This document shows, piece after piece, positions 38,190 through 57,032 of a DNA stretch of 59,055 bases (its first letter is position 1; each line of letters starts with the position of its first letter). Origin of the DNA: a virus; the IMG/VR virus record IMGVR_UViG_3300037961_006162, positions 1-59,055 of that record; one strand, given 5' to 3'. The translations under genes and the position numbers were made by a program. The notes below the pieces were generated by a model. That model saw only the letters and a list, made by a program, of their open reading frames with translations. It did no database searches and was not told the origin of the DNA.

Positions 38190-41100
38190 TTAACCACCTT
38201 GATAAAGAGCTTCAAATGGATCATCATCACTACCACCACCAAAAGACATAGGTGCCATAGCCATAGATGATTCATCAGATTCAAACGAATCTCCCTCTTC
38301 TACATCATCAGCAGATACAAATACTTCATCAGGCGGTCCAAATCCATATTCATTGATAGATTGTAACACACTTGCCAACTGTTGCCTGCTATCTGCACCA
38401 ATAATTGCAGGCAAAATGCCTGGAGCCATCTCATTCAAATATTGAGTGATTTTACTACCAACAACACCTTCAGGTTTCCCACTCTCACCAAGAATAGCAG
38501 GCGTCATTCTATTAATTATACCACCCTCATCCATTAATCTCACACCAGCAAACCAATTTGTTCCAGCATATGAATCCCAGTGATTTCTATATTGCCATCC
38601 ACCTCTCGTACTATGATCATATTGTTTTGTTAATCCATCATTAGCAGCAATGCCCACATGAGTAATTGCATGTTTATTATATTTTCCACTAGAAGTTGTT
38701 TGTCTCCATAAAATAATATCGCCGGCTTTAATCTGTGATTTATTACGAATGATTTGTCCCAAATCACTTCCACCAAAAGATGCAGCAGCTTCCTGACCCC
38801 TGGTCCAAGAACTAGCTACTGGTATATCCAGATCACCTTTTTTTGTAGTTTTTCCTCCACCACCTTTAAAAGTTAATCCAAATTCTTTTAGACCACCAGC
38901 CGCAAGAGCACTTCTAGTTGTCCTTGCACAACCATTGGCTACACCATTTTCCTGTCCCAATATTTTTTTAGCACCAGCAAGAATTTTGGCTGCTTTTGGA
39001 CTACCATCCCCAGATAATCTTGCATCACCAATATCACCACCACTAGATGATGTTACATCAATCGATCCAATATCTCTTTCACTTCCAGTAATACCAGAAT
39101 ACTGATTCAACAATCTCCTAAGAGCTTGAGCATATGCAGGATCAGTAGCATATCCCTCTGCTCTCAATTGATCAGCGGCTGCAAGAGCAGACGGTGCATT
39201 GTTTACACCCTTGTATCCTTTATAATCTTTATACCACTCAGTTACTAAGTGATTAACAGCTCCCTGTGGTTCGTTAAAATTCTTAAACCTTTCATCAAGA
39301 AATACATCCTTACCATTGATTACTTCTCTTGTTCTAGAAACCGTTACATCAGTGTCAGATGCAGTTGCTTTGATACCAAAGAAGTTATTTCTAGCAGCCA
39401 GTTTAGTTCCCCAACCTGACTCTAATGCAAATTGTGCTGCTACCAATTCTGGATATCCTGCTCCTGCCTTTTGACCCATCGCATAAAATGCTTTCCACTT
39501 TTCTTTATTAGTGCCGGTTACAGCGCCCATTGAACCGCCAGAAGAAGCAGAAGAAAAATCTGATAACATTGATGTGTTTACAGATTGGCCTGTTTTTCTT
39601 GCTTCTTTTGCAATATCGCTCAGACTCTTATCAGCACTTTTTTTAATACTTTTTTCAAAAGTACTCCCAACCCATTTAGTAATATCACCACCTTCGGTTG
39701 TGGCAAATATAGATTGAACATCTACCATACCTCCATTTGCAAAGGCAGCAGCAAGACCTCCACTTAATGTCCCATCACTCAATCCTCTTGATATTAACTG
39801 ATTAATACCAAGTCCAACATTTTCATAATCCTTTCGTTCTGGTTTTTTTCCTGTTAATATTTTAGCAGTTATTGCAAGAATAGGTCCAAAGTAATCAGTT
39901 TTCCCTAAATTTTTTCCGGTTTGTTTAATAGTACCAAGAGGACCTGCACCCGAAGATTTTGGTTTTGAGAATAATCCAAGTATTTTACTCTCACCACCAA
40001 CATCTATTCCTGGATTATCAAATTTAACTTCTCCAGGTTTTCTAACTACCTTTCTCTTATATCTAAATTTAGAAACAGACCTTCTTGGCCCAGTTCGGCC
40101 ACCAGAACCACCGCCACGATACCCCATTCCTTTGGTTCCCTTTTCGCCATAAAGACTTCCCCAGGAACCTTTTTTATCAAGTCCATCTGCCCAGTCTTTC
40201 TTACCAACAAGTCTTAGCAGAGGACTTAAAAATCCGGCAAAATGTTCTCGAATACCATCTCTAATTCTTGCATCAAACTTTGCAAGATTCTTTGCTTGTT
40301 TAATTTTATCCTCATCACTTAAGAAAGGATATCGAATTAATTCAATAGCATATCTAAATGGAGCACCAAGAATGTCTAAAGTGACTCCAATACCATTTAA
40401 CATCCAATTCCCGAATCTCAAAAATGGCATAACAAAAGCAGAGGTTGCCATTTTAAATGTTCGTGTTATAGGATTGGGATCTTTTTTTGCTCCCTCACCA
40501 AATTCATGTACCTTTTTCTCAAAACCTTGCGATGCTTTCTTGACTTGGAAAGATCCTTCTCCCAGTGCGGATGCAAGTAAACCTACCCCACCAACAATTG
40601 CAGCAGCAGTTCCAACAGTAAGACCAGTACCTTTGGCAGCAACACCAGTTAGCTTGCTAGTTAGAGTTTTTGCAGCTAATTTCTTTTTTAATTTGTTGCC
40701 AATAAAATCTGTAATAATATCACCAAGGCCACCACCACTATCACCCATGGATGACGTGGCAATTGATGCAGCAATAGCAACTGTGACTAATGTTTGAACT
40801 GTACCAAGAAACTTATCAAATGTTTTTGCAGCATTTTCTCCACCAAAAGTTTTTAATGCGTTTTTGGTAAAATCAATTGCTTTATATCCCCAATCAATAA
40901 ATGTAACTAACCCATTCAGAACTTTTCCACCAACATCAATAACAAAGTCAGCAGCATTTCCAAGAAACTTCAGTAATGGTTTTATTTTTGGTAGATATTT
41001 TATCAACCTTATGGCAAAGTATCCAAGTATTATATTACCAATAAAGTTTTTAATCCAACCCAAAAACCCCATCCTTGGAAGTTTTGGTGTTTTGATTTTA

Positions 41101-41372
41101 CCTTTTCCTGCTTGTGGTTTTGTTTCTAATTTTTCTTCAGATTTATCTCTTCTCTTTTTACTTTGCTCTCTCTTGTCAAGATCAAGTGATTTCTTCTCTG
41201 ATGCAAGAGTTCCCTTTAAGATTTTTTCAATCTTAATTACATTTACTTTAACAGATGCAATATTCTTAACAGATTTTTGTGATAAAACAACTCCAGATGA
41301 TCCAGAAAGAACTAATTTTTGATTAGTTTCCGCTGTAGATTTGTTTAAAAGTTTGCTTGAAGTTATTGCCAT
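38190..41372 (-). CDS. Bifunctional tail lysin: glucosaminidase plus NlpC/P60- or CHAP-like peptidase
   Basis: 1060 residues. Residues ~1-100 are charged, then several hydrophobic stretches (FLGWIKNFIGNIILGYFAIR; GTAAAIVGGVGLLASALGEG) resemble a tape-measure segment. Residues ~621-760 form a GH73-type glucosaminidase: VAAQFALESGWGTK (catalytic Glu ~651) and NNFFGIKA. Residues ~800-945 look like a cysteine peptidase: GCARTTRSALAAGG (Cys), KAGDIILWRQ and HAITHVGIA (His). Together these would cut both glycan and peptide of host murein during injection. T4 puts its lysozyme on gp5 instead. Follows the tape measure by 10 nt. Residue numbers are estimates. Confidence 0.85.
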   Translation of the reverse strand: MAITSSKLLNKSTAETNQKLVLSGSSGVVLSQKSVKNIASVKVNVIKIEKILKGTLASEKKSLDLDKREQSKKRRDKSEEKLETKPQAGKGKIKTPKLPRMGFLGWIKNFIGNIILGYFAIRLIKYLPKIKPLLKFLGNAADFVIDVGGKVLNGLVTFIDWGYKAIDFTKNALKTFGGENAAKTFDKFLGTVQTLVTVAIAASIATSSMGDSGGGLGDIITDFIGNKLKKKLAAKTLTSKLTGVAAKGTGLTVGTAAAIVGGVGLLASALGEGSFQVKKASQGFEKKVHEFGEGAKKDPNPITRTFKMATSAFVMPFLRFGNWMLNGIGVTLDILGAPFRYAIELIRYPFLSDEDKIKQAKNLAKFDARIRDGIREHFAGFLSPLLRLVGKKDWADGLDKKGSWGSLYGEKGTKGMGYRGGGSGGRTGPRRSVSKFRYKRKVVRKPGEVKFDNPGIDVGGESKILGLFSKPKSSGAGPLGTIKQTGKNLGKTDYFGPILAITAKILTGKKPERKDYENVGLGINQLISRGLSDGTLSGGLAAAFANGGMVDVQSIFATTEGGDITKWVGSTFEKSIKKSADKSLSDIAKEARKTGQSVNTSMLSDFSSASSGGSMGAVTGTNKEKWKAFYAMGQKAGAGYPELVAAQFALESGWGTKLAARNNFFGIKATASDTDVTVSRTREVINGKDVFLDERFKNFNEPQGAVNHLVTEWYKDYKGYKGVNNAPSALAAADQLRAEGYATDPAYAQALRRLLNQYSGITGSERDIGSIDVTSSSGGDIGDARLSGDGSPKAAKILAGAKKILGQENGVANGCARTTRSALAAGGLKEFGLTFKGGGGKTTKKGDLDIPVASSWTRGQEAAASFGGSDLGQIIRNKSQIKAGDIILWRQTTSSGKYNKHAITHVGIAANDGLTKQYDHSTRGGWQYRNHWDSYAGTNWFAGVRLMDEGGIINRMTPAILGESGKPEGVVGSKITQYLNEMAPGILPAIIGADSRQQLASVLQSINEYGFGPPDEVFVSADDVEEGDSFESDESSMAMAPMSFGGGSDDDPFEALYQGG

Positions 41373-41382
41373 TTGTTATACC

Positions 41383-44148
41383 TCAGAAAATACCAAAGAG
41401 TTTTTGTCTTTGTTTTCTATTTGCAGTACTAGCAGGACTAGTTGCACCAAAATTCGGAGTCTTTGGAGCTGCATTAGCACCCTGAGAATATCTAGACCTC
41501 TTAGAAGATGATTTTACAACTGTAACTTTTGGTTTAGGTTTAGGTGATGGAGTAATACTCGGAACTTTTGGTGGATCTTTTTTAATTTGTGCTGGTTGTT
41601 GATTTTCGGCTTGGCGTTTCATCTCTGCACTAGCACCACCGAACCATCCAGCCTTATCCCACCAAGGACGTTTTGCTTCAAGTGCTTTTTGATTTTTTAT
41701 CTCTGCCTGTTTTTTTCTTTCTTGTTCAGTTTTTTCTTGTTTCAACTTTTCATCAACTAATCTTTTTTGGGTTGGGCTAAGTTGTGCTGCAAACTTTTTG
41801 AGATCACCAAGTTCTGATAGTTCATCAATTTGTGCCTTTGATTTAAATCGTTTTGGATCTAATCCTCCACCCTCTTTCGCAGCATCATAACCAAATAATT
41901 TATTTCTAAGTGCAAGAATATATTGAGGAAGACCTCCACCCTCGGTAGCATCTTGCATTGGTCTCAAATCTAACTTTTTAGCAATTTGTCCAAGTGGAAT
42001 ATCAAGTGGGCCTAACTTTAACTTTTTATTTTCATCTTGGAAGGATGCTACTTGCTTTTCATATTGCCTTTGAGCATCTGATCCAGGTCCACCAAGATCA
42101 ACCTTTCCAGGATCAAATCCATAAGTATCCAAAAGATATCCTTTTCCTGTCTTTGGATCAACATAAAATCTTACACTACCTTGTTCTCTATATCTTGGAT
42201 CAGTCTTGTCAACTTTGGCATATGGATTAATAACATCACCACTCTTCAAAGTTCCTGCAGACATTTTTTGTTTCAAAATATCCATATATACTTTTTTACT
42301 TTCCTTACTCATCTTATTGAGTTGCATTTCACCAATATTATATGCACTCTCAATTCCAGACTTACCAGTAATCATAGCTTGAGCCGCTAGATCACCATAC
42401 TTTGCGTTTTCTTTTGATATTCCAATAGATTTTAAATAAGACTCAGTTTTCATCTTATTCAAGCTATTAACAAAAGGCAAATTTGGAAGCAAATCACTTA
42501 AAAAGTTTGTTGCTTGGTTTTTTGCTGCACCGGACAGTTGACCATCTTCGTTCAAATATCCACTTTTTACAAGTTTTTTTTGTATATCTCCAACAGCTTT
42601 TGAAATATCTTGAACTCTTGGATCTGATTTTAACTTTTTAAAAGTGTCTTGAATATAAGTTTGAACTCCACTTGCACTTTGAGTAATTTGATTTCCTAGA
42701 CCACCAAGAGTGCCTCCACCAAATTCTCTTGGTATTTTAATGCCTGAAATATTTGGCATTCTAAAGCCACCACCTCCACCCCAAGTACGTGGATCTTGTA
42801 GATTGATTCCTTGAGAACTAAAATAGTTGCCAATGTCTATTAATGCTTTTCTAGCATCACCAATATATCCACCACCAGCAGCATAAGTTGTTCCACTTAC
42901 AATCTTTGGTACGTTTGTTCCGCCACCAGCAGCATTCATTGCTTCTAGTGTGCCAACTCCATACTTATCAACAGCACCACGAGACATGACAAATTCGCCA
43001 TCACTCAACATGGCAGGAACTTTGTCTACACCCTTCTCGCCGCTGACAAAACCATTTGATTTGCCACCTCCAAGAAGCATTCCAAGAGGACCAAACATAG
43101 CGCCCATAGAAGCGCCACCCATCATACCTTTAAAATTAAATCCACCACCAGAGAATGAAGGAAAACGTGGTTTTACATAACCACCACCATTAAAGTTTTG
43201 TATTTTTGTTTGTCCGGCCTCTCCGCCACCACCATCACCTTTAAGAGCATTACCTATAGCTACAGTGCTACCAACAGCAAATAAAGTTTCTAATCCAGCA
43301 CCAAGAAGTTGTCCTTTCTTGCCGCCAAGAAATTTACTTACCTTAGATAACTTACCACCAACACGACCAATACCTGCTTTTACTGCAAGTTTAGTCGCCA
43401 ATGCACCAATTTTAATGGTACTCTTTATGAGTAAACCAACCAATCCCCTAGCAAACCTACCAAGAGACGTTCCAAATACAATATAAAGAGATAAAAGTTG
43501 AGGAGCCCAATCCTTAAAGAAACGTATGACTGAATTAAGTTTTTCTCTATTCTGAGGATTGCCGAACCATCGAATAATTTTAACTAATATTCTACCAAAA
43601 ATAATGGTTCCAATAAACTCAAGTATTCTATCAAGAATACTTTTAACAGGTTGTATAATTTTTTGTGCTGTATTAGCAATACCCTGAAATGCTTTTTCTA
43701 ATTTGCTTTCAGCAAGTGCTCTCTTTTCTTTCTCTTTTTTTCTTCTTTCGCTTTCAGCTTGTTTGGCAGAAAGTTTTTTCCTTCCTAGTAATATTTTTGC
43801 AATAGAATCTACTGATTTTGAAATTGTAGAAATATTTTCTTCTACATTTTTACCACTACCACCAGGTAATTTTGATCCAATATCTGCACCACTTATTCTA
43901 CCACTTTGAGTCTTAGATGTAGTTTTAAGACTCGTAATTTTTTTAGAATTAATATTTGACTTCTTTTCTATCTCACTAACACGACCAACAAGTTTTCTTG
44001 TGTGTCCAGCAAGACTACTTATATTCTTATGAATACTTGAAAGATTTTTTGAAGAACCCGTAAAAGTTCCTCTCCCAAATTTTTCAGCAGAGATGGATAT
44101 CTTTTTAAATTGTACGTCTAGGTCCTTTAAGTCCTTAGAAGTTTGCAT
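41383..44148 (-). CDS. Tail tape-measure-like protein (gp29 position)
   Basis: 921 residues. N-terminal ~150 residues are helical and Lys/Ser-rich; two hydrophobic segments follow (ILEFIGTIIFGRILVKIIRW, LLSLYIVFGTSLGRFARGLV). The motif VPAMLSDGEFVMSRGAVDKY is typical of phage tape-measure proteins. The C-terminal ~250 residues are Lys/Glu/Pro-rich. It lies immediately after the gp26/gp51-like chaperone genes and overlaps the latter by 14 nt, the classic place of a tape measure. T4 gp29 is 590 residues; a longer protein suggests a longer tail, or extra domains. Name by position and motif, not by close alignment. Confidence 0.75.
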   Translation of the reverse strand: MQTSKDLKDLDVQFKKISISAEKFGRGTFTGSSKNLSSIHKNISSLAGHTRKLVGRVSEIEKKSNINSKKITSLKTTSKTQSGRISGADIGSKLPGGSGKNVEENISTISKSVDSIAKILLGRKKLSAKQAESERRKKEKEKRALAESKLEKAFQGIANTAQKIIQPVKSILDRILEFIGTIIFGRILVKIIRWFGNPQNREKLNSVIRFFKDWAPQLLSLYIVFGTSLGRFARGLVGLLIKSTIKIGALATKLAVKAGIGRVGGKLSKVSKFLGGKKGQLLGAGLETLFAVGSTVAIGNALKGDGGGGEAGQTKIQNFNGGGYVKPRFPSFSGGGFNFKGMMGGASMGAMFGPLGMLLGGGKSNGFVSGEKGVDKVPAMLSDGEFVMSRGAVDKYGVGTLEAMNAAGGGTNVPKIVSGTTYAAGGGYIGDARKALIDIGNYFSSQGINLQDPRTWGGGGGFRMPNISGIKIPREFGGGTLGGLGNQITQSASGVQTYIQDTFKKLKSDPRVQDISKAVGDIQKKLVKSGYLNEDGQLSGAAKNQATNFLSDLLPNLPFVNSLNKMKTESYLKSIGISKENAKYGDLAAQAMITGKSGIESAYNIGEMQLNKMSKESKKVYMDILKQKMSAGTLKSGDVINPYAKVDKTDPRYREQGSVRFYVDPKTGKGYLLDTYGFDPGKVDLGGPGSDAQRQYEKQVASFQDENKKLKLGPLDIPLGQIAKKLDLRPMQDATEGGGLPQYILALRNKLFGYDAAKEGGGLDPKRFKSKAQIDELSELGDLKKFAAQLSPTQKRLVDEKLKQEKTEQERKKQAEIKNQKALEAKRPWWDKAGWFGGASAEMKRQAENQQPAQIKKDPPKVPSITPSPKPKPKVTVVKSSSKRSRYSQGANAAPKTPNFGATSPASTANRKQRQKLFGIF

Positions 44149-44323
44149 TGCTCATCTGCTGCTGTTGATTTAACCGTTCTTCTTCAAGATGTTGCTGCAA
44201 TAAAGCAATATAAACATCTCTTTCCCATGGTATCATATTTTCTATCTCCCATAAAGAATATTTATGATACTGCATCAGGGAGAAATTGAGACGAAAATAA
44301 TTCTCAAGATCCATATGGACCAT
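44135..44323 (-). CDS. Small gp51-like hub assembly/tail chaperone; likely also made as a gp26 fusion
   Basis: 62 residues starting MVHMDLENYFRLNFSLMQYH. The core WEIENMIPWERDVYIALLQQ, followed by a charged Gln-rich tail, is the signature seen in the frameshifted half of tail assembly chaperones (W...PW.R..Y...L). In T4 the gene after 26 is 51, the hub assembly catalyst, but T4 gp51 is far longer. It lies 2 nt after the gp26 stop, in the -1 frame relative to gp26, with a slippery heptamer at 44332-44338. It overlaps the tape-measure gene by 14 nt. The independent ATG may or may not be used. Confidence 0.7.
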   Translation of the reverse strand: MVHMDLENYFRLNFSLMQYHKYSLWEIENMIPWERDVYIALLQQHLEEERLNQQQQMSNANF

Positions 44324-44325
44324 GC

Positions 44326-45045
44326 TTATGCGAAAAAAGATGCTAAGCCCTCAAGAACAACCTCACTTTCAGTTTTTGTCTTTGGATTCTTAACTTTAAT
44401 TGTATGAGATAATTTTGGCATTGTCTCAAAAAATGTTTCAATATTTTTGAACTGAGAAGAGTTCATTGATTCAAGAAATTCATTAATTTCTTTTTTAGAA
44501 ACATCACTGGAAGTCCACACTTCTTCTTCAGTAAAAATCTTATCAATACAAGAACCAATCAATTCAAAGGATTGATCCATTGCGTTTTTGTTATCAAAGT
44601 CAAAATTATTTTTGATAAATTGATCAAGAGATGGATACTTCATTTCCATCATGATCTTATCATCAACCTTGATACGATTTGTATGTTCTTTACTTTTTTG
44701 AACTTCAATATCATCAAGATTGATTTTTACAGGAACCTGTGTCTCTCCATCATCTGGACAAATAATATTAACTTCAAGTTCTTCTCCAACAGATTTACCA
44801 CGAATATTCAAAAACAAAAATTCAATATCAAATGTTGGGAGGGTTTCAACTTTAATATTTTTAGTTAAAATACAATTTTTAATTACTGCCTTAATTGCTG
44901 TTGTAATTTGCTTATTGTCTTCACTCTCCAGTGCAATTACAAGAAGTTTTTCTTCTTTAACTAAAAACGGCCTATATCGAATTGTTTCTTCTGTCGATGG
45001 CAATTCAAGTTCATAAGTTGGTGTAGAAATTTTTGGTAAAGGCAT
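44326..45045 (-). CDS. 26: Baseplate hub/tail chaperone protein gp26 (T4_baseplate family)
   Basis: 239 residues. The opening LPKISTPTYELELPSTEETI and the RYRPFLVKEEKLLVIALESE motif are the hallmark of the T4 gp26 family. It contains a Cys-containing zinc-ribbon-like turn region (NIICPDDGETQVPVKINLDD) and ends SFFA. Known T4 gp26 takes part in hub assembly; by position (directly before the tape measure) it resembles the G chaperone of lambda. The gene ends in a slippery sequence that would extend it into the next frame. Leader at 45046-45099 has TCTAAATA, one base off the late consensus. T4 gp26 is 208 residues. Confidence 0.88.
   Translation of the reverse strand: MPLPKISTPTYELELPSTEETIRYRPFLVKEEKLLVIALESEDNKQITTAIKAVIKNCILTKNIKVETLPTFDIEFLFLNIRGKSVGEELEVNIICPDDGETQVPVKINLDDIEVQKSKEHTNRIKVDDKIMMEMKYPSLDQFIKNNFDFDNKNAMDQSFELIGSCIDKIFTEEEVWTSSDVSKKEINEFLESMNSSQFKNIETFFETMPKLSHTIKVKNPKTKTESEVVLEGLASFFA
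44332..44338 (-). promoter_or_regulatory. Candidate programmed -1 frameshift site (T TTT TTC)
   Basis: In the gp26 frame the codons run TCT TTT TTC GCA TAA; the heptamer T TTT TTC is a canonical X XXY YYZ slippery site just 3 nt before the gp26 stop codon. A -1 slip continues as CGC ATA AGC ATG into the 62-residue open frame, with no stop between. A potential hairpin GGTCC-ATAT-GGATC follows about 12 nt downstream. The fusion would be about 302 residues. Confidence 0.7.
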
Positions 45046-45098: not shown

Positions 45099-45965
45099 TT
45101 AATCAAACTGAGAAGCATGTTCTGGATCAAACTGTCCACTAAGTTTAGCTTGCATCGATCTAGCAAATTTCGTATGTTTGCTATCGGGACTTCCTGTATA
45201 TCCTGAAGCTCCCCAAGCAACTTGGTAAGCATCATCTTGATTGAAGAACTCTGAATTTGATGCAAAACCATCATTATATCCCGCTTGTTCTATTGGGGTT
45301 GATGGATTTCCTGGTGCTCCAGGATCAGCTACCTTATTTAAAACATATCTAATATATGCCATGGAAACAGTACATTTTAAAAGATTGGAAGATTCATAAG
45401 AAACAGGCATAGAAGATATGCTGATTGGATATGATTTCACAAAATCATATCTCAAGTATTGACCTTTACCATAACTACTTTTTTCAAATTTAGTGACATG
45501 CAATCCACTTGCAGAATATTCATCAATATACTGAAATCTATAAAAATAATTGTCATATGCTGATGTAATGTTTCCTCTTTCTGGTTGAGGTTTCTCTGAA
45601 GATTCTTGTGAAATAAACTTCATCCAAGTTTCAAAGACTCTAATTGGCAAATAAAAATCAGCATCAACATAAAAAGTTAAATCAATCCTATCATCATAGA
45701 TTCTTCTATATGCATGTTTTTCAGTGACCCCATGAAAATCACCAGTAACTTCAAGTGTTGCCAGGTTAGAACCTGGGAGTGTTGCATCACAACACATTAA
45801 GTTCAATCTATCAAGGTTGGTTGTTGTCAAATTAATTCCATTATCAGATAAAAACCCACCACTTGTTAGTTTTTTAGGAAGACCAATCCCAACCTCAAAA
45901 TGAGAAGTTGTTGCGGGATGTAATAGTGCAGATTTGATATCGGCTATGCGCTTTGGAGTAGGCAT
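45099..45965 (-). CDS. 54: Baseplate tail-tube initiator gp54 (tail-tube fold)
   Basis: 288 residues. The fold is that of a tail-tube family protein: TTSHFEVGIGLPKKL, LMCCDATLPGSNLATLEVTG and RRIYDDRIDLTFYVDADFYL are the expected strands, and PIRVFETWMKFISQE is the characteristic loop helix. T4 gp54 (320 residues) caps the baseplate and starts tube polymerisation with gp48; gp19 (163 residues) is smaller. Length and the neighbouring gp26 favour gp54 over gp19. It diverges from gp4 across a 32-bp gap that carries a plus-strand late promoter. Confidence 0.75.
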   Translation of the reverse strand: MPTPKRIADIKSALLHPATTSHFEVGIGLPKKLTSGGFLSDNGINLTTTNLDRLNLMCCDATLPGSNLATLEVTGDFHGVTEKHAYRRIYDDRIDLTFYVDADFYLPIRVFETWMKFISQESSEKPQPERGNITSAYDNYFYRFQYIDEYSASGLHVTKFEKSSYGKGQYLRYDFVKSYPISISSMPVSYESSNLLKCTVSMAYIRYVLNKVADPGAPGNPSTPIEQAGYNDGFASNSEFFNQDDAYQVAWGASGYTGSPDSKHTKFARSMQAKLSGQFDPEHASQFD

Positions 45966-56110: not shown

Positions 56111-56448
56111 TTTCTTTTCTTATCATTTTTTGATTTATTTCCCCAGAGTTTGGGATTCATTGTTCCAAACCCAAAGCCAATCTTTTGAACTGCTCCAGGA
56201 CCATACTTATCATAGTACATATCAAACAACTCTACAGTTTTTCTGCATCGAGTGAGATCAATGTGCTCTACACCATCTACAATGTACCAAATAAGTCTGG
56301 CATCATTTGGAAGAGACTTATCATTTGCTGCTTCAAGAGTAGTTTTCTCTTGCAGAATCTGGCAACAGTAATCAGAAGGATTGATTTGTACTTTATCTGC
56401 TCCAAAATCTGGCATGTCGGTTTCTTTTTCTTGTACAGCTACTGTCAT
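56107..56448 (-). CDS. Orphan protein downstream of the DUF6433 gene
   Basis: 113 residues from MTVAVQEKETDMPDFGADKV; ends KNDKKRK. The segment NDARLIWYIVDGVEHIDLTR, then CRKTVELFDMYYDKYGPGAV and QKIGFGFGTMNPKLWG, suggests a compact alpha/beta protein. Start at 56448: the ATG overlaps the TGA of the upstream gene (ATGA) behind a strong GGGGAGG Shine-Dalgarno. Earlier in-frame codons overlap coding upstream. Conserved in cyanophages as I recall; function unknown. Confidence 0.75.
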   Translation of the reverse strand: MTVAVQEKETDMPDFGADKVQINPSDYCCQILQEKTTLEAANDKSLPNDARLIWYIVDGVEHIDLTRCRKTVELFDMYYDKYGPGAVQKIGFGFGTMNPKLWGNKSKNDKKRK

Positions 56449-57032
56449 GAACGACCTCCCCACTGAATATCCGGATAGGCTTTTTTTACACAATCAAAAG
56501 ATATTTTATATTTATCTGTCAATTTTTTATCCTTCACTAGAATCAAAATTTCTGCTTCTTTGGGATGTAAACCTTGGAGAAGATTAATAAACATCGTTTC
56601 TCTACGAATAGTTGTGAGAGAATTATTTCCACCACGGATAAAATGGTAGAGGTTTACATATTCATTACGAAGTGATGTGCGTCCTCTGCCATCCAAGTCT
56701 TGACCTGTTGCAGACTCACCACCGTAGGCTTCCTTTTTCAAGTTTTCAGAAAGTGTTCCAGAATACACAGATTGATCTTCAGCTTCTGCATAAGGCACTT
56801 CACCTTCAGGAAGTAAAGAAACTATCGTCTCATCAAAGTTCCAAATAAAAATAGACTTTAATGATGGATGACTGTAAGTTTTTAATGTTTCAACTTTCTT
56901 TGCAATTGATCTTTGCTTTGATGCAAGTTCTAAAATCTCAAATACAAACGGGTTTGTCGGGAGAGTTTCAACCTTGATAGTTCTAGTAGACTTTGATTTA
57001 GTTGTTGTCGTCTTCTTCTTCGTCGTAGTCAT
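56445..57032 (-). CDS. DUF6433-family cyanophage protein
   Basis: 195 residues. The core PFVFEILELASKQRSIAKKV, then HPSLKSIFIWNFDETIVSLL, PEGEVPYAEAE, and the end YKISFDCVKKAYPDIQWGGR match the DUF6433 family of T4-like cyanophages; unknown function, found close to replication or auxiliary genes. The N-terminal 15 residues are Thr/Lys-rich and coded in a 35-nt overlap with the acidic tail of the upstream gene; no later Met fits. Confidence 0.85.
   Translation of the reverse strand: MTTTKKKTTTTKSKSTRTIKVETLPTNPFVFEILELASKQRSIAKKVETLKTYSHPSLKSIFIWNFDETIVSLLPEGEVPYAEAEDQSVYSGTLSENLKKEAYGGESATGQDLDGRGRTSLRNEYVNLYHFIRGGNNSLTTIRRETMFINLLQGLHPKEAEILILVKDKKLTDKYKISFDCVKKAYPDIQWGGRS

Follow-up and report, generated by a model that had tools for sequence, protein, structure and literature searches.

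The window analyzed here is a 59,055-nucleotide stretch of viral DNA (IMG/VR record IMGVR_UViG_3300037961_006162, positions 1 to 59,055), and among cultured viruses its closest relatives are phages of Synechococcus and Prochlorococcus, e.g., S-SM2. On its minus strand, a tail-tube-like gene is followed by a gp26-like open reading frame (ORF), a small ORF in the −1 frame, and a tape-measure-like gene. From 5′ to 3′ on that strand, the features are as follows.

45099..45965, minus strand: tail-tube-like gene, the upstream member of the tail module (PF23849 Phage_TTP_2, E=2.6e-14; phrog_45 tail tube, E=2e-28)
44326..45045, minus strand: gp26-like ORF, the putative short chaperone and equivalent of G / TAC-N (PF12322, phrog_150, AlphaFold2 pLDDT 85)
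44348..44352, minus strand: Shine-Dalgarno-like GAGGG, candidate stimulator, 9 nt from the slippery heptamer (codon enrichment among relatives)
44332..44338, minus strand: slippery heptamer T_TTT_TTC (exactly at −10 from the stop in 188/199 distinct relatives; codon fixation)
44135..44334, minus strand: −1 frame extension, a T-like C-terminal domain (phrog_634, E=2.8e-26; phrog_150 positions 241-281; alignment to the T4 gp51 C terminus)
44326..44328, minus strand: zero-frame stop TAA of gp26, which the proposed shift would bypass (DNA read directly)
44308..44321, minus strand: stem-loop GGUCC-AUAU-GGAUC, candidate stimulatory structure, 10 nt 3′ of the heptamer (covariation, codon-shuffle peak)
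41383..44148, minus strand: tape-measure-like gene, 921 aa (weak tape measure PHROG matches; position)

Profile searches matched the 239-residue gp26-like protein to PF12322 (E=9.2e-77) and phrog_150 (E=4.5e-80). Direct reading of the DNA shows that its gene ends ...GGC TTA GCA TCT TTT TTC GCA TAA, as originally predicted, with T_TTT_TTC in the canonical X_XXY_YYZ register of a textbook −1 slippery site, one codon (GCA) before the stop. The small ORF (62 codons, 44323..44135, minus strand) was likewise correctly placed in the −1 frame with no intervening stop; the fusion frame is open, and the predicted fusion length of ~302 residues becomes exactly 303 aa. The −1 ORF has matches in two PHROGs: phrog_634, annotated "baseplate hub assembly catalyst" (gp51), and the gp26 profile phrog_150, of whose 282 positions it matches 241-281; this second match indicates that fused versions exist. 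Its end overlaps the start of the 921-aa gene by 14 nt. The predicted gene order, with gp26 and the small ORF ahead of a tape-measure gene, was also borne out and is the location expected of a G/GT-type system; the tape-measure assignment is drawn from position, from relatives (a nearby downstream gene of phage Cr30 is annotated tail tape measure), and from weak profile matches. Adjoining the tape-measure-like gene, a 1060-aa protein (38190-41372, minus strand) with a glucosaminidase domain (PF01832) is probably a tail-associated cell-wall enzyme.

Within the window, TTTTTTC occurs only three times on the entire minus strand, and only two further candidates for similar frameshift sites were found elsewhere. 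An ORF at 56445-57032 (minus strand) has A_AAA_AAA 40 nt upstream of its stop, and its −1 frame stays open for 126 codons; this may reflect chance or overlapping genes.

To place the junction in context, 199 distinct junctions were gathered from IMG/VR scans and GenBank phages. T_TTT_TTC lies exactly 10 nt upstream of the gp26 stop in 188 of them, while two carry it at −7, one at −13, and two have T_TTT_TTT at −10. The conserved site is shared by cyanophages, Vibrio KVP40, Aeromonas phages, Cronobacter S13, Stenotrophomonas Marzo, Caulobacter Cr30, Pseudomonas pf16, and Agrobacterium OLIVR5, and it is kept by almost all T4-type relatives checked outside T4's own branch. The original prediction would have suffered had close relatives lost the heptamer while keeping both genes, and this is not what the 188/199 figure shows. 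The locus shares this feature with G/GT-type systems, in which a conserved canonical heptamer lies in the reading frame of the short gene, close to its end. The junction observation is real and far beyond chance.

Further exceptions to the pattern are Vibrio D528, the T4-type phage Melville, two Ackermannviridae (VAP7 and VP-1), and one IMG/VR contig (IMGVR_UViG_3300049043_000112). In Vibrio phages VP-1 and VAP7, gp26 ends GTT TTT CGC TAA, and in D528 it ends CTT TTC AAG TAATGG; in all three, the T-like ORF is still in the −1 frame. The GTTTTT of VAP7 is similar to the motif reported for Vandenendeviridae. On the IMG/VR contig (~2210-2391), the slippery run lacks 2 nt (TCTTTTTGG), and gp26 and the T domain are fused in one frame without a short form; this fusion may be either natural or a long-read/assembly error. 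Pelagibacter phage Mosig (~2125-2166) has the same heptamer, and its zero frame continues for several codons to a later stop.

Could the heptamer be kept solely because the protein requires Phe-Phe, a pair that is indeed invariant across the protein family? We examined codon use in a non-redundant set of 153 sequences (identity below 90%), all of them chosen from carriers of the heptamer at −10, so the fair conservation figure remains 188/199. The slippery-site pair is TTT TTC in 153/153, so the codons are fixed along with the residues, unlike those of a second conserved Phe-Phe pair in gp26, where usage is mixed (TTC/TTT 103/49 and TTT/TTC 138/9); Phe elsewhere is 72% TTT. Because this internal control is mixed, the codon fixation at the slippery site is local. 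The codon just before this pair invariably has T in its third position (AGT, TCT, GCT, GAT, AAT, or GGT), and serine at this position alternates between AGT (63) and TCT (56), T-ending both ways, while synonymous sites flanking the heptamer vary freely. Furthermore, T4-type gene 26, which has no downstream ORF, keeps Phe-Phe as TTC TTT. Conservation of protein sequence alone was therefore rejected on the internal Phe-Phe control, and we assign it a probability close to nil.

The homopolymer run itself raises a different possibility, namely, that transcriptional slippage on the six Ts yields mixed mRNAs, part of them in the −1 phase. Recoding by transcriptional slippage is an established phenomenon (PMC5009743). 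The run, however, is fixed in length and codon register with its closing C, and it is followed by structure at ribosome-like spacing. Six Ts are also short for slippage by bacterial polymerase. We regard this explanation as exceedingly unlikely.

Upstream of the heptamer, codon choice in the same 153 sequences points to a second candidate signal. At position −24, Glu is encoded by GAG in 115/143 sequences (80%), versus 31% elsewhere in gp26, and at −21 Gly is encoded by GGG in 42/152 (28%), versus 6% elsewhere; Fisher P values for both count related sequences as independent and are indicative only. Together, the favored GAG and GGG form a GGAGGG-like element ~10 nt upstream of the heptamer, a spacing that it shares with the stimulator of dnaX.

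Downstream, the original prediction had described a weak hairpin, GGTCC-ATAT-GGATC. It is present at 44308-44321 and is short, yet it is supported by covariation in the window's clade. When the window's own 106-nt RNA was folded singly, its stability was not unusual (z=−0.23), so the case for structure rests on comparison. In a scan in which codons were shuffled so as to keep every protein and the codons of each column, the 39 nt starting at the gp26 stop gave z=−13.5; upstream windows ranged from +1.7 to −4.7, and later windows were back in that range. This measure is inflated by shared ancestry. A single hairpin common to all relatives was rejected, as the window's 5-bp stem is complete in only 47/153 sequences. 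Tested by codon shuffling over all clades, that stem alone gave z=2.3 to −0.9, and splitting the sequences by clade revealed two different stems.

Clades were split by gp26 protein similarity, and the alignments were ungapped and built without reference to structure; the stems were picked after viewing folds of the same sequences. The window's clade (86 sequences) has a 5-bp stem with a 4-nt loop, in which 81.6% of cells are paired, two-sided changes occur in 5/5 pairs, and covariation exceeds that of 500/500 shuffles and of every slid control. Its sister clade (46 sequences) has a different stem of 11 bp with a 9-nt loop, 88.1% paired versus ≤48% when slid, in which one pair varies U-A/G-C/A-U. 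Comparative evidence thus points to a stimulatory signal, as expected of a G/GT-type system, with both the RNA structure and the Shine-Dalgarno-like element as candidates.

The small ORF could instead be a separate gene, reached by reinitiation at an ATG just past the gp26 stop, with the heptamer incidental. Database annotation favors this reading, the small ORF being listed as a separate "gp51" gene in P-SSM4, S-RIM32, and other relatives, and so does an ATG at +5 in 95/153 sequences. A Shine-Dalgarno sequence within reach of that ATG, however, was found in 0/95, and 22/153 sequences have no ATG, GTG, or TTG in the −1 frame ahead of the conserved core. A separate gene would also leave the invariance of T_TTT_TTC and the structured 3′ element unexplained. 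Reinitiation as the main route was rejected on the start-less sequences and the missing Shine-Dalgarno, and we consider it very unlikely. Across relatives, the −1 frame is open and its protein sequence conserved, and, as in a G/GT-type system, the extension needs no start of its own. The start-less frames account for the missing "gp51" annotation in S-CAM4, Aeromonas G2, and Cronobacter S13, in all of which the domain is present.

Comparison with T4 suggests what the two products are. T4 gp26 (208 aa) and gp51 (249 aa) each span the full PF12322 profile and, by sequence, are homologous; only gp51 extends into phrog_634. In a BLASTP search, the window's −1 ORF aligned to T4 gp51 residues 212-246 (E=9e-5). 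The locus thus has both parts of the T4 gp26/gp51 family, a short protein matching the family profile and, at the C terminus, an extension homologous to the end of gp51. By these alignments, T4 gp51 is the short protein plus a C-terminal domain, and T4 uses two genes where the window's phage would frameshift. In T4, by contrast, the two genes are divergently transcribed, and gene 26 has no slippery site. Both T4 proteins are hub assembly chaperones (PMC3004832). Sullivan et al. (2010, PMC3037559) noted that cyanophage and marine vibriophage gp51 proteins are short of ~200 N-terminal residues and that one phage apparently lacks gp51 altogether; the frameshift probably supplies those missing residues.

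An AlphaFold2 model of gp26 (pLDDT 85, pTM 0.78) was compared with the PDB, where the HK97 tail chaperone 2ob9 (HK97 gp13) ranked 3-4 without significance (E=0.73, TM≤0.41, high rmsd). Searching PDB sequences with the gp26 profile gave chance caspase matches only, and matches in a viral structure library were to baseplate-hub (gp26-like), unnamed, or uncharacterized proteins. With so weak a match to HK97, the chaperone role is argued from homology to the T4 hub chaperones, architecture, and gene order rather than from fold. In an alignment of gp26 C termini, CxxCG zinc-ribbon-like motifs precede Phe-Phe in non-cyanophage proteins (KVP40, Aeromonas, Marzo, OLIVR5), and cyanophage gp26 has NPKTK in their place.

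In light of these data, we consider it very likely that a −1 programmed frameshift of the lambda G/GT type makes short and long tail-assembly chaperones from this locus; the gene order and a T domain homologous to the T4 gp51 C terminus fit such a chaperone pair, as originally proposed. Most ribosomes would terminate at the TAA, yielding the short protein of 239 aa. The short RNA stem-loop would slow a minority of them, which, probably aided by the internal Shine-Dalgarno-like GAGGG, would slip at U_UUU_UUC as tRNA-Phe in both the P and the A site shifts its pairing back by one base; these ribosomes would continue in the −1 frame to make the 303-aa fusion with the T-like domain. As in lambda G/GT, the part shared by both products would serve to coat the tape measure protein, and the C-terminal domain, present on the rarer product, would bring in the tail tube protein. 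The sequence itself shows the heptamer, frame, conservation, structure, homology, and gene order; slippage and its rate are inferred, and the chaperone role of the products would follow from homology with T4 gp26/gp51 and from position directly ahead of the tape-measure-like gene.

The lambda G/GT tail assembly chaperones use a −1 frameshift (Levin 1993, Xu 2004, 2013, as cited in PMC5009743). The proposed arrangement resembles theirs: a short chaperone would be accompanied by a less abundant −1 fusion, and the coding region lies between the tail tube and tape measure genes. The lambda heptamer is GGGAAAG, unlike the T_TTT_TTC found here. The slippery site also lies only one codon before the stop, whereas other sets average 26-36 nt (PMC10885494). 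According to that same paper, which draws on Vladimirov, Gautam and Davidson (2022, PMID 34826709), some T4-like phages have a short copy and a fused long copy, and T4 gp26 and gp51, one short and one fused gene, match that report as relayed there. Crediting Vladimirov et al. (2022), PMC12846349 describes poly-T sequences as established −1 signals in the TAC-N genes of T4-like phages; the chaperone frameshift of Vandenendeviridae and Andersonviridae treated in that paper (phage Adele) differs in having the motif GTTTTT, not T_TTT_TTC.

Judging from these citing papers, the core claim was very probably already published for T4-like phages by Vladimirov et al. (2022). The original prediction knew of no report for T4-like cyanophages; for T4-like phages the phenomenon has apparently been reported. 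No cyanophage-specific paper on the frameshift was found, which is weak evidence given a literature search covering few subscription journals. The useful additions here are the switching RNA stem, the upstream signal, and an answer to the puzzle of the truncated cyanophage gp51. On balance, we favor a model in which cyanophage lineages swap the stimulatory stem around a fixed heptamer and keep the upstream Shine-Dalgarno-like element, the chaperone ratio being held by an element free of fixed sequence, and in which the T4 branch uses two homologous genes, gp26 and gp51, instead of the frameshift, explaining the "truncated" gp51.

The "gp51" gene listed for many marine T4-like phages is thus probably the tail of a frameshift product rather than a gene of its own, and gp26, which bears the label of a baseplate hub subunit, is probably the short tail-assembly chaperone. 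This would explain the 2010 remark on gp51 lacking its first ~200 residues and on a phage seemingly without gp51 (PMC3037559). The natural series of a frameshift site, stem variants, and a two-gene form could be used for testing how phages hold their chaperone ratio.
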